A stretch of DNA of 64,000 nt. Source: Labilibaculum sp. (GTDB lineage Bacteria > Bacteroidota > Bacteroidia > Bacteroidales > Marinifilaceae). Shown piece by piece: positions 31,265 to 49,569 of this stretch; the stretch's first letter is position 1; every line of letters begins with the position of its first letter. The stretch lies in contig JAEINT010000015.1 in NCBI GenBank assembly GCA_016342745.1, forward strand, positions 1 to 64,000, in the 5' to 3' direction. The notes under the pieces were generated by a model that saw nothing but the letters and a program-made list of their open reading frames with translations, was not told where the DNA came from and did no database searches. Both the position numbers and the translations under genes were made by a program.

Positions 31265-32452
31265 TTATTTTTTAGAGGTAGAAAAAGGGATGGTAAATTT
31301 AAAGGCACTACCAACATTTACTTCACTTTTAACACTTAATTTTCCTTTGTGTTGTTCTACAAATTCCTTGCACAAAATAAGTCCCAATCCTGTTCCTGTT
31401 TCATTTTCAGTTCCAATCCCTACAACATTCTCTCCAATTTGGAACAATTGATCTAATTTATCAGGCTTAATCCCAACACCATTATCTGTTACCGATATTT
31501 CAATAAATTTATCCGAAATTTTCGATTCTACGACAATTTTGCCTCCACGAGGTGTAAATTTAATGGCATTGGAAACCAAATTTCGAACGACAGTATTTAT
31601 CATGTTTGGATCAACAAAAGCGGTCAAATCCTCATCTATTTTTACTTCTAATTCAATTTGTTTGTTTTCCGCACTTCCAGTAAGAAGAATCACAACTTCA
31701 TGAACCAAATCCCATAAGTCTACTTGTTTTGGCTTCCATGCAATAGATCCTGTTTGCGTACGCGACCAATCTAAAAGATTTTCCAACAAACGAAAGGCTT
31801 GTCGAGCAGATTGATTAATTATTCCAGAGAAGGTCTTTACTTGTTCTTGACTTAATTCATTGGCACCATCAACAAGCAAATCGGAAGCTCCAATTAATGA
31901 AGCAAATGGATTCTTTAAATCGTGAGCAATAATTGAAAAGAATTTGTCTTTGGTAGCATTCAACAACTCAAGTTCTTTCCTTTGTTTTTCAATTGTTACC
32001 TTTTGCTTGGTCAATTCCTCCTCCAAAAGATCTTTAACAATCATTCTCTTTTTAACATTCTGTAATGGAATTAAAATGGAGTCAATAATTTTAATTCCAA
32101 ATTCCTTTTCTAACTGTTTAATATGCTCTTCGGTACATTTAAGCAAAACAGAATCGGTTTTAGCACTTGCAGAAGCCGATCTTTCCTCTGATTTTACAAA
32201 TGCAAATTCACCAAAACTTTTCCCTTCATCAAGCTCAATAAAGACATGTTCTGCATCGTGAATTTGAACAGAACCTTTCTCTATAATATAAGCGGCACCA
32301 CCTAAATCTCCTTTTGAAAATATAGTTTCACCTTTTTTTACTTTTAACTCATCAACAATATTGCTTAAAAAGCGATACCCTTCCATATCCTGCTCTACAA
32401 GAAAATCCAAACTCTTTAGTAATTCTATTTTTTTATCAAGGTTTAAAGACAT
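31265..32452 (-). CDS. Histidine kinase with N-terminal cyclic-nucleotide-binding domain
   Basis: 395 aa, soluble. The ATG at 32452 starts at MSLNLDKKIE; a longer reading to 32560 would run through the neighbouring terminator and was rejected. Residues 15-130 form a cNMP-binding domain with a good phosphate-binding cassette (FGEFAF 80-85, Arg91 in ERSASA). A coiled coil (135-170) leads to HisKA (His177 in SIIAHDLKNPF) and HATPase (GIKPDKLDQLFQIGE, then ETGTGLGLILCKEFVE). It could link cyclic nucleotide levels to phosphorylation; its response-regulator partner is not adjacent. Other cNMP genes lie at 46859-49461. Confidence 0.9.
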   Translation of the reverse strand: MSLNLDKKIELLKSLDFLVEQDMEGYRFLSNIVDELKVKKGETIFSKGDLGGAAYIIEKGSVQIHDAEHVFIELDEGKSFGEFAFVKSEERSASASAKTDSVLLKCTEEHIKQLEKEFGIKIIDSILIPLQNVKKRMIVKDLLEEELTKQKVTIEKQRKELELLNATKDKFFSIIAHDLKNPFASLIGASDLLVDGANELSQEQVKTFSGIINQSARQAFRLLENLLDWSRTQTGSIAWKPKQVDLWDLVHEVVILLTGSAENKQIELEVKIDEDLTAFVDPNMINTVVRNLVSNAIKFTPRGGKIVVESKISDKFIEISVTDNGVGIKPDKLDQLFQIGENVVGIGTENETGTGLGLILCKEFVEQHKGKLSVKSEVNVGSAFKFTIPFSTSKK

Positions 32453-46858: not shown

Positions 46859-48166
46859 TTATTTATGACAGTAACAAAGCTCTTCTGTTACCTGAAAAAC
46901 ATTCACTTCCTCTTCAATACCTTTCACCTTAACTGATCCCAAATCAATCAGTTCCTTTTTACAATCTAATAAATTTGCAAGTTGCTTACTAAGTAAAAAT
47001 TGAGTTTTGAAATTCTTATTTAACTGTTCTATGCGAGATGCTATAATTACATTTTTACCAGCTATGGAAAACTGCTTTCTAATTTCATTGCCAATATTAC
47101 CAGTAATAACTTCGCCACAATGCAAGCCAATTCCAACGATGGTTGAATCTTCATTTTCGAATGGTCTCAAATGATTTATCGCTTCAATAATTTCCAATCC
47201 TGCATGATAAGCATCTTCTGCGTGCTTGTCGTTTTTCACAGCAATACCAAATGACGCCATAAAACCATCTCCTAATATCTGATGAATAATCCCATTATTC
47301 TTCTCAATAATCCGAATTAATGGATCGAAAATGGCATTTTGAAATTCGATTGTTTCTTCTGGGCTTTGATGATCGGCCATTACCGTAAAGTTTCTGATAT
47401 CCAAAAACATGATCGAACCAAAAACTTTTTGTCCTACCGTATCATTTCTATGCAGGATTAATTCTTGAGCAACACCTTTGGATAACTGCTGTCCTAAAAG
47501 AGATTCTATTTCATTTTGAGTATCCTTTGCTTTTAATAGATTATTCACTCTTTTCCGAATTTCAGCAGCAACTACACCAGCAATTACACCTGCCGATAAC
47601 AAACCCAAACTTCTCATCGAATAGATTTCAATCATTTGATCAATATCACCTTCTGGTTTCAAGAATTGGATTCCCCAATAAGAAACTCCGAAATACCCAA
47701 TACAAGCTAATACTCCGGCACCAACAGATATTTTCAAATCGAGATGCATTGCCGATAGCATTAAAAGCAAGAAGTAAAAAGTAAGACCATCGTACTCTAA
47801 AACCAATAACGAATTATCATACTTTACAATATTGTACAATATTATAGCAGGCAAGCCAAACTCAACCAATAAATTGAGAATCAATATTCGTTTTGGAACA
47901 GAACGAATGTTTTTTATCATCGATCTCATCCTAAGATAAACTATGAGTTCGAATAAGAAAAAAACAAGCCACCAAAAAGATACAACTATTACGAATTCTT
48001 TATTATTCAATTGATCACGCAATAAATTGGGAATCATCTGATGTAAAATCGGAATTACCAAAGTACTCACGAGAAATATTAACAAAATGATACCAACCCG
48101 TTTCCTTTCTATTTTAAGAAACTCAGGATGTAAAGGTTCATTAAATTTATGATGTCCGAATAGCAT
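46859..48166 (-). CDS. Membrane class III nucleotidyl cyclase with atypical base-binding residues
   Basis: 435 aa. Five or six membrane helices (about residues 24-200) precede a linker helix and a class III cyclase domain (about 245-430). Metal-binding Asp256 (FLDIRNFT) and Asp300 (LGDGFMASFG) and the transition-state Arg378 (ASRIEQL) are kept. The purine-recognising Lys is Gln296 (HQILGD), and the Asn of the VNxASR motif is Ile374 (VIIASR), with Ser367 at the other base-selecting position. So it may be active but with unusual base preference, or weak. It lies 18 bases downstream of a cyclic-nucleotide-gated channel gene on the same strand, its likely partner. Confidence 0.88.
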   Translation of the reverse strand: MLFGHHKFNEPLHPEFLKIERKRVGIILLIFLVSTLVIPILHQMIPNLLRDQLNNKEFVIVVSFWWLVFFLFELIVYLRMRSMIKNIRSVPKRILILNLLVEFGLPAIILYNIVKYDNSLLVLEYDGLTFYFLLLMLSAMHLDLKISVGAGVLACIGYFGVSYWGIQFLKPEGDIDQMIEIYSMRSLGLLSAGVIAGVVAAEIRKRVNNLLKAKDTQNEIESLLGQQLSKGVAQELILHRNDTVGQKVFGSIMFLDIRNFTVMADHQSPEETIEFQNAIFDPLIRIIEKNNGIIHQILGDGFMASFGIAVKNDKHAEDAYHAGLEIIEAINHLRPFENEDSTIVGIGLHCGEVITGNIGNEIRKQFSIAGKNVIIASRIEQLNKNFKTQFLLSKQLANLLDCKKELIDLGSVKVKGIEEEVNVFQVTEELCYCHK

Positions 48167-48184
48167 ACTCTTTTTTTCTACTTG

Positions 48185-49461
48185 TTAAATATATCGTTCT
48201 TCTCGTGATATTGATTTTGCCTTGATTTTCTCAGCTATTTGAGGGTAGCGTTTAAGCACTTTATGGAATTCCTTCTTTTGTAATTCGTAAACATCCGAAT
48301 AACTTATGGATTGAACTGTAGCTGTTCTAGTCTCTTTTTTAAACAAAGCTATTTCGCCCATAAAATCTCCTTTTTGCAAAATGGTTAACTGTTTGGTTTC
48401 ATCAGCCGAAAGAACTTTGATTTTCCCTTTTTGCACAAAAAACATGGAATTCGCAACATCACCAGTTCGAAATAGATAATCGTCAGGTGTTAATGTCATA
48501 GGTGTTAAATATTGCGCTACATCTCTAATAAAATGTTCATCTACACAATCAAATAAAGGAATGTCTTTAATTACATTTTTCTTAAACTCCAACTGTAATT
48601 CCATCCTTAATCCATATGGCAAAGCTTCCATAAGCTCACTCTCATCGTAGCCCAGTTTTTGTTTCCATTCGTAAGTAAAATAATCGTTTATTCTATTCTC
48701 TAGATTCTTTGAAATTTGCTGATAGTGAATTAAAGCTTTTAACTTCTCCATATTCTCAACAAAACGTTGTTCTGCTGGATTCTTTTTAGTAAAGATTCCA
48801 ACAACACTACCAACAAATAAAGCCAGCACAGCAACTCCAAGAATCTGCAAAAATATCGTAAAGATCATTTCCAAATTACCATGAGGAACAATATCCCCAT
48901 ATCCTACAGAAGTTAATGTTGTGATCACCCAATACAAAGATTGAACATAATTATCGCCATTTGTGATTCCACTTTCCAAGCCATGAATATTTAGCCAAAT
49001 GCATGTTAACCAATGGGAAAAAACAAAAAAACCTAATAGCATAAACCATAAGGATATTTTTGCTGACATGCGAATATTTCGAATTTGAAAAAAGCGAGCA
49101 GTTCTATAAACTCTTACCCATTTAAAAAGACGAAGCAATTGAAAAGCAGGATGAGAAAAAATTACTGCATAAGGTAACAACGAGAGAATGTCAGCTACAA
49201 AAAACTTCTGGGATGAATAAGAATCCCAATAGACATCTTTAGAATTGAATGATTTTTAACTTCACGGTATCTTAAAATATTTGCAATTAGATCAAGACAG
49301 AAAATCAACGAAATACTTAAATCAAGCGTACGATACCAATTCAGACTTCTTAAATTAAATAAAAAGTCTAAAGGGATTATACTTGCTTGCAACAATACTG
49401 TGAGGATAATGACTATTCTCCAGCCAGAATTGTAAATTGATTTGAGGTATTTATCAGACAT
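48185..49461 (-). pseudogene. Cyclic-nucleotide-gated K+ channel, split by a frameshift
   Basis: Two frames together make one channel. The first (49461-49195, from MSDKYLKSIY) holds helices S1-S3; the second (TTG at 49180 down to 48185) holds S4 with its arginines (LRLFKWVRVYRTARF), S5, the K+ filter TSVGYGD, S6, a C-linker and a cNMP-binding domain (FMGEIALF, Arg in TRTATV). In the second frame the sequence reads on upstream as KFFVADILSLLPYAV, a normal S3. The switch can be explained by one base lost from the T5 tract at 49253-49257 (A5 on the coding strand). It may be a real mutation, a phase-variable tract or a sequencing error. Apart from that the gene looks intact. Confidence 0.8.
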
Positions 49462-49569
49462 TAAGATTAGGTTTCGTCCAAAGTAAAACGATTTGAATAA
49501 ATTCTCCCAAATAAAATAGACAAAAGCAAGTTTTCGATCGGTAAACTGCAATTAAGCCTATATTATTCC

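Follow-up and report, generated by a model that had tools for sequence, protein, structure and literature searches.

The stretch of DNA analysed here (the window) comprises 64,000 nucleotides of contig JAEINT010000015.1, from a Marinifilaceae genome listed as Labilibaculum sp. (assembly GCA_016342745.1). On its minus strand, between positions 46,859 and 49,461, a gene for a potassium channel of the cyclic-nucleotide-gated (CNG) type is followed by a gene for a membrane class III nucleotide cyclase, and a conserved element lies upstream of the two. All features of the locus given below are on the minus strand.

The main part of the channel gene (48185..49255; listed as open reading frame, ORF, 48185-49180) is an open frame encoding the end of an S1-S4-like region, a pore with the K+ filter TSVGYGD, a C-linker and a cyclic-nucleotide-binding domain (CNBD). 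The ORF matches the Pfam families cNMP_binding (E 2.2e-20) and Ion_trans (E 1e-16), which agrees with a sequence-only reading of the window that had pointed to this filter and to a good binding cassette for cyclic nucleoside monophosphates (cNMPs). The filter is present in 12 of 12 channel rows. The best solved match is SthK (E 6.4e-71, 316 residues aligned), with which the channel has in common the phosphate-binding cassette GE...RTATV and an architecture of K+ filter pore, C-linker and C-terminal CNBD; SthK is termed a small cAMP-gated K+ channel in the available text of PMC6218482. The N-terminal part of the channel lies in another frame (49195..49461, within ORF 49195-49551, with an ATG at 49461), and the stretch 49195..49255, where the two frames overlap, holds the single interruption of the channel reading frame in this assembly. 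Taken alone, this fragment matches no Pfam family and is recognised by its homology to the channels of relatives, so its identity as S1-S4 rests on their open frames; the comparison with SthK began after the first half of this region. The frame is open through the interrupted region in 11/11 relatives (428-455 aa). It is also open in the near-identical N-terminal stretch of a genome listed as the same species (G050; 3 mismatches and one gap over an alignment of 582 bases), and the C-terminal part of the window channel, compared with that of genome OB13, gives a dN/dS of 0.046 (dS 1.3). The interruption is accordingly either recent or an assembly error.

The cyclase gene (46859..48166; 435 aa, from the ORF and Pfam) is the second gene of the unit. 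Its product belongs to class III by its Guanylate_cyc domain (Pfam E 1.1e-23, residues 251-426) and its two metal-binding Asp residues, and it has about six membrane helices ahead of a catalytic domain at approximately residues 246-430. A profile of 28 relatives aligned with the membrane parts of the solved structures 7yzi (which we take to be mycobacterial Cya), AC5 and AC8, profile residues 53-422 matching 7yzi 65-439 and residues 26-385 matching AC5 242-597. An AlphaFold model, of low confidence (mean pLDDT 60, pTM 0.40), has six long helices, the last of which (175-227) continues into the linker.

The active site deserves closer description. In class III adenylyl cyclases a Lys and a Thr/Asp form the pair that selects adenine and an Asn serves the transition state, the Lys and Asn positions being important for base choice and catalysis. 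D256 and D300, the metal Asp residues, are invariant in 28 aligned cyclase rows, and a 10-row alignment shows D256, D300 and R378 to be invariant together with Q296, S367 and I374. The last three occupy the positions of Lys, Thr and Asn in the photoactivated cyclase OaPAC, so that the description of this active site as atypical in the sequence-only reading was apt. The Gln/Ser/Ile triad was found in 19/19 cyclase rows of the family and in 18 of the 20 distant homologs from Bacteroidota (the exceptions being L057 with Q/S/N and L191 with K/T/N). Since it is fixed to this extent, the triad is a trait of a Bacteroidota cyclase subclade and not a sign of decay. Gln in place of the Lys is not peculiar to the subclade, for by eye it occurs in two further cyclases of the same genome (L090 and L091), both of which keep the Asn.

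The exchanges of Lys for Gln and Asn for Ile at key positions, recurring as they do in distant homologs, could be taken to mean that the catalytic domain has lost the ability to form a cNMP and has become a nucleotide-binding sensor that acts by contact on the channel or on other partners. We consider this improbable. None of the 20 distant or 19 family rows has lost either metal Asp or the Arg, a site conserved across many families is more readily understood as that of an altered enzyme than of a dead one, and the channel keeps a well-scoring CNBD.

A separate observation concerns the C-terminus of the cyclase, where a short C-x-C tail (CYC, CIC or CSC; window 46859-46882) is present in the window, in G050, in OB13 and in the five g12 Marinifilum rows, and missing from the Labilibaculum rows, Ancylomarina euxinus (G001), G026 and G041.

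Conservation of the pair and of its upstream element

Relatives were sought in 56 Marinifilaceae genomes (the family being defined by named relatives) with a match cut-off of E <= 1e-20. The cyclase was found in 19 of these genomes, the channel in 12 and both in 11 (Fisher p = 5e-6, uncorrected for kinship). In all 11 genomes with both genes, the two are adjacent, in the same order and on the same strand; they are neighbours on one contig in ten, and in the eleventh (OB13) the channel contig ends inside the first 34 codons of the cyclase. The gap of 18 bases between the channel stop and the cyclase ATG, noted earlier for the window, was confirmed, and corresponding gaps measure 17-31 bases in 11 of 12 loci and 85 bases in one (M. 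breve and G004 contributed no cyclase start). The dN/dS is low in both genes: besides the channel value given above, the cyclase compared with that of OB13 gave a dN/dS of 0.055 (dS 0.85). Two further named carriers of the pair, M. breve and M. caeruleilacunae, lie outside the draw of 56 and are known only from a scan of named genomes with two N-terminal peptide patterns, which yielded 17 loci in 16 genomes.

G050 is not counted as an independent case of the pair, being a mosaic. Its locus (L062, G050:C4:202000-221900, compared with window positions 39000-59500) contains tracts that are 99-100% identical to the window, tracts that are 100% identical to G004, and others at approximately 75-90%, with switches inside the channel gene. 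G004 belongs to another genus and is about 80% identical to the window in the tracts that G050 has in common, and the rpoB of G050 is nearly identical to that of G004. The mosaic may reflect a hybrid assembly or a very recent exchange.

The order of the surrounding genes is also widely conserved (tetR, tolC, hlyD, ABC genes, channel, cyclase, a beta-lactamase-like gene, butyrate kinase and hydrogenase genes). As exporter, pair and downstream genes are largely syntenic across the family, the two genes might be chance neighbours, held together only by conservation of the whole chromosomal region. The pair nevertheless persists where the flanks differ. In M. breve no ABC exporter was matched in the 8 kb upstream and the pair directly follows a MacB/FtsX-like gene, and in A. 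euxinus the usual downstream genes were unmatched in the 8 kb after the pair. The short gap and a common upstream element, found whichever gene leads, likewise speak against a mere chance arrangement, to which we give hardly any credence. Chance is a poor explanation inside the family because the genes are adjacent in every genome that holds both. The pair is real and conserved in the family, and it is probably one operon.

The upstream element (49514..49545) contains the 9-base boxes TTTACCGAT and TTTGTCTAT, which resemble each other and start 21 bases apart. In our reading this spacing, some two helical turns, would suit a pair of protein sites on the same face of the DNA. Closer to the channel, the alignment of loci revealed a TTTACTTTGG box (49478..49487) that ends 16 bases before the channel ATG and is promoter-like, its role as a promoter being putative. 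Taken together, some 70 bases ahead of the channel follow the form YTTACCGAT...CTTTTNTCTATTT, then TTTA[CT]TTTG or a near form; the exact TTTA[CT]TTTG box occurs in 10 of the 17 aligned loci, with near forms elsewhere. The cis element was found in 16/17 loci examined, an alignment that left out L042, L046, L048, G050 and the channel-less G034. It precedes the channel in nine of the ten channel loci, as a weaker copy in A. euxinus, and was not seen ahead of the G004 channel, where there is no cyclase. In all seven channel-less loci examined (from seven of eight such genomes) it stands directly ahead of the cyclase. The pattern matches once in the window, against 0.02 matches expected. In a search of eight genomes, matches with 0-1 mismatch occurred only at the locus (in G000, G029, G036 and G041); the remaining matches had 3 mismatches and were no commoner than those of a reversed control, and A. 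euxinus, with its weaker copy, gave no match. This distribution supports a candidate transcription unit with its own control, from the front of which the channel is missing in Labilibaculum. An Rfam scan of the window gave nothing at gathering scores.

In a tree of rpoB from 23 genomes, the seven channel-less cyclase genomes that it includes group together with support 87, and their sister group is formed by the window's genome and OB13, both carriers of the pair. The tree has a long outgroup branch and weak rooting, and G025 and G032 are absent from it (no rpoB match). As the channel-less genomes form a single clade, one loss of the channel is the simplest account. Faint protein-level matches to the channel in Labilibaculum (E 0.05-0.4) were considered as remnants of it and rejected, since they lie in the upstream element and are not coding remains. 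By eye, three loci (L037, L047 and L050) have extra sequence with copies of AAAGTCTTGACTTT ahead of the cyclase, after the final gene of the exporter, and in L047 the copies form an inverted repeat.

A proposed circuit from messenger to membrane potential

A conserved upstream element, a channel gene and a close cyclase gene are kept together, and both genes have a low dN/dS. We infer from this that the best explanation is a single unit in which the channel is opened by a cNMP that the cyclase produces, a reading to which we give a probability of roughly 60%. According to this reading, the two genes would be co-transcribed and the cyclase would dimerise, its membrane domain acting as a receptor, as has been proposed for membrane adenylyl cyclases, and setting the activity of the catalytic domain. 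The membrane domain of Rv1625c is reported to be a lipid receptor in the accessible text of PMC12505454. The enzyme would then form a 3',5'-cyclic nucleotide just beneath the membrane, and the nucleotide would bind to the CNBD of the presumably tetrameric SthK-like channel and open the K+ pore, whereupon the open channel would bring the membrane potential closer to the equilibrium potential of K+. The messenger is probably a purine cNMP, cAMP or another, the Gln/Ser/Ile change leaving the choice wide. Since the channel-less branch keeps its cyclase behind the same element, other cNMP readers of the CRP-like kind probably serve there, and the channel would be one output of the cyclase and not an obligatory one.

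The genome does hold other candidates for the reading of such a signal. It has 11 CNBD places, namely the channel, a histidine kinase and nine further frames that measure 228-261 aa and that we read as CRP-like by their length, and four class III cyclase domains, one of them with the canonical Lys/Asp/Asn/Arg; from these numbers a cNMP could have many readers. By eye, this Lys/Asp/Asn/Arg cyclase (L088, G000:C10:151273-151827) is followed by a region resembling an HD hydrolase, so that a single protein may both form and degrade cAMP. The two genes may thus have a common promoter while the cyclase serves mainly soluble readers (the nine CRP-like proteins and the kinase) and the channel is an accessory or answers the cAMP of another cyclase. 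This fits the 8 of 19 cyclase genomes that are without a channel ortholog, seven of seven examined keeping the cyclase behind the same element, and the cyclase dN/dS of 0.086 in the one Labilibaculum pair tested, as well as the canonical cyclase elsewhere in the genome. The fixed order and adjacency in every genome with both genes speak against it, and we regard it as unlikely, if worth serious attention.

The histidine kinase, with an N-terminal CNBD, is encoded at 31265-32452 (minus strand, first ATG at 32452), where the sequence-only reading had placed it when it proposed a local cyclic-nucleotide network. Of that network the cyclase-channel unit stands, through its constant adjacency, short gap and cis element; a part for the kinase, which lies 14 kb away, is conjectural. 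Orthologs of the kinase were found in 20/56 family genomes, and 18 of these are among the 19 that have the cyclase (rows E < 1e-95), that of OB13 being cut by the contig end before the CNBD and that of G025 being only 43% identical. This co-occurrence follows the clade and does not speak to a common pathway. The kinase CNBD keeps the GE...RSA residues, and by eye no membrane segment was seen after the ATG.

Several observations weigh against the messenger-to-channel reading. The window's own channel lacks an intact frame. The cyclase does not have the residues associated with the making of cAMP (Lys with Thr/Asp, and Asn; OaPAC as reference), and with the substrate-selecting Lys/Thr and the Asn replaced neither its activity nor its product can be predicted. 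Within the family, the channel is absent from 8/19 cyclase genomes, the channel of G004 stands with neither cyclase nor upstream element, the counts are uncorrected for kinship, and relatives in the pattern scan came only from Labilibaculum, Marinifilum, Ancylomarina and one Marinifilaceae metagenome-assembled genome. Among 395 sampled Bacteroidota genomes (E <= 1e-40), the cyclase was matched in 17 besides the window's and the channel in 15; four had both (Fisher p = 0.002, again uncorrected for kinship), never on one contig. No channel or CNBD profile was matched in 20 stretches around distant cyclases, and no cyclase in 21 stretches around distant channels (both at E <= 1e-3, some of the stretches stopping at contig ends).

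An even draw of 345 genomes of the class, which overlaps with the draw of 395, contained four others with the cyclase, six with the channel and none with both. Clustering of the genes in 21 cyclase stretches (including Leptospira) and 21 channel stretches returned recurring families that are housekeeping or generic, e.g. LytTR-like regulators and a Sua5/YrdC-like gene (named by eye), and a CNBD partner was not seen in them. Co-occurrence across genomes, an expectation of the sequence-only reading, held in the family, with constant adjacency; outside it the genes occur together in a few genomes, not as neighbours. As adjacency was not found outside the family, the operon looks like a trait of this one family, assembled from two older parts.

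A more specific version of the circuit takes the active site as its starting point. The Gln-Ser-Ile cyclases may form a subclade that is old in Bacteroidota and makes its own product, either a cNMP other than cAMP or one reached by another rule of base choice, which in the Marinifilaceae operon would be wired to a K+ channel, giving a non-defence circuit from receptor through an unusual cNMP to membrane potential. We put this forward tentatively and think it rather doubtful.

The anti-phage reading

The sequence-only reading had also raised a stress or anti-phage role. In a system like Pycsar, infection would cause the cyclase to make a cyclic pyrimidine and the channel would empty the cell of K+. 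The general plan is indeed the same, a cyclase with a membrane CNBD effector, and when the defence models of PADLOC were run on 14 window proteins, the cyclase matched the PycC model (E 5.3e-20) and the channel matched the PycTIR and TIR-effector models (E 1.1e-11) through its CNBD. These matches are generic, however. Three of six control cyclases scored better on the same PycC model (Leptospira, 4.3e-33, and L191, 4.5e-29, both canonical, and the distant homolog L177, 8.3e-26) and three scored worse (the genome's own canonical cyclase, 3.4e-15, and two others, 3e-7 and 1.3e-7), so that cyclases with canonical residues fall on both sides of the window cyclase. The kinase CNBD matches the TIR-effector model too. 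A neighbouring ABC ATPase matches the PADLOC models mad3 (E 4.6e-26, about 100 residues) and AriA (5e-11), which we take to be generic ATPase matches.

The selective residues of PycC, as given in the available text of PMC11224242, are F100/R142/Q144 in EaPycC and F60/K104/F109 in AnPycC. Placed by their distance from the metal Asp and not by structure (BcPycC was not placed), these residues are unmatched in the window cyclase, except for a Phe two positions before the first metal Asp that also occurs in OaPAC. Nor does the setting resemble that of a defence system, as the locus is a conserved chromosomal one among exporter and metabolic genes, each gene stands alone in some genomes, and the peptide patterns used found no relative in viral contigs. 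Phage records contained only a distant cyclase domain (28.8%) in Pelagibacter phage HTVC008M, a single phage that appears as two records. Cyclase matches were found in 425 plasmid records, none covering 80% of the query; the best 15 of them cover 50-53%, in the catalytic half, and the nearest, from Leptospira, has the canonical K/T/N, and within 5 kb of it no channel is annotated. At E 1e-15 the channel had no match in plasmids. Conserved synteny, the lack of a viral-contig relative and the unspecific PycC matches thus leave the anti-phage or stress extension unsupported, and we judge a Pycsar-like function very improbable.

Comparison with known systems

Bacterial CNG channels such as SthK serve as structural models, and to our knowledge the source and purpose of their ligand in the cell are seldom known. 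SthK and related channels, among them 5v4s (presumably the Leptospira channel LliK), have the K+ filter pore, C-linker and CNBD, and SthK also the GE...RTATV cassette, in common with the window channel, which differs in being encoded beside a class III cyclase. The likely source of the ligand of a SthK-like channel would here be the next gene, which makes the question testable. Membrane adenylyl cyclases of the Rv1625c type, with one six-helix domain, resemble the window cyclase in joining a membrane domain to a C-terminal catalytic domain; the window cyclase differs by Lys to Gln, Thr to Ser and Asn to Ile relative to OaPAC. Because it departs in this way from the Lys/Thr/Asn pattern, its product would test how class III enzymes choose their base. 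Pycsar (PycC with PycTM or PycTIR) likewise sets a class III-like cyclase beside a membrane CNBD effector, whereas the window effector has a K+ filter, the EaPycC and AnPycC residues described in the available text are unmatched, and there is no mobile or defence setting.

Among the top matches of a search of the open-access literature, most subscription papers lying outside it, none described a bacterial operon, occurring in nature, that joins a class III cyclase to a CNG channel; this absence carries little weight. The nearest systems listed join the two functions in other ways. According to the accessible part of PMC2279260, an adenylyl cyclase and a K+ channel domain are fused in ciliates and apicomplexans (the malaria parasite), and in Paramecium a K+ conductance is reported to regulate cAMP formation. 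Cyclase and K+ channel are one protein there, as far as that text describes them, whereas the window has two genes and its CNBD channel would likely be the receiver. A close parallel to the proposed mechanism is PAC-K, described in the available text of PMC6218482 as an engineered combination of SthK with a photoactivated cyclase, in which the product of the cyclase opens a SthK-type channel, as we propose for the window pair. PAC-K, as presented there, is man-made and driven by light, whereas the window pair is natural and, if our reading is true, would form a testable bacterial circuit from receptor through messenger to membrane voltage.

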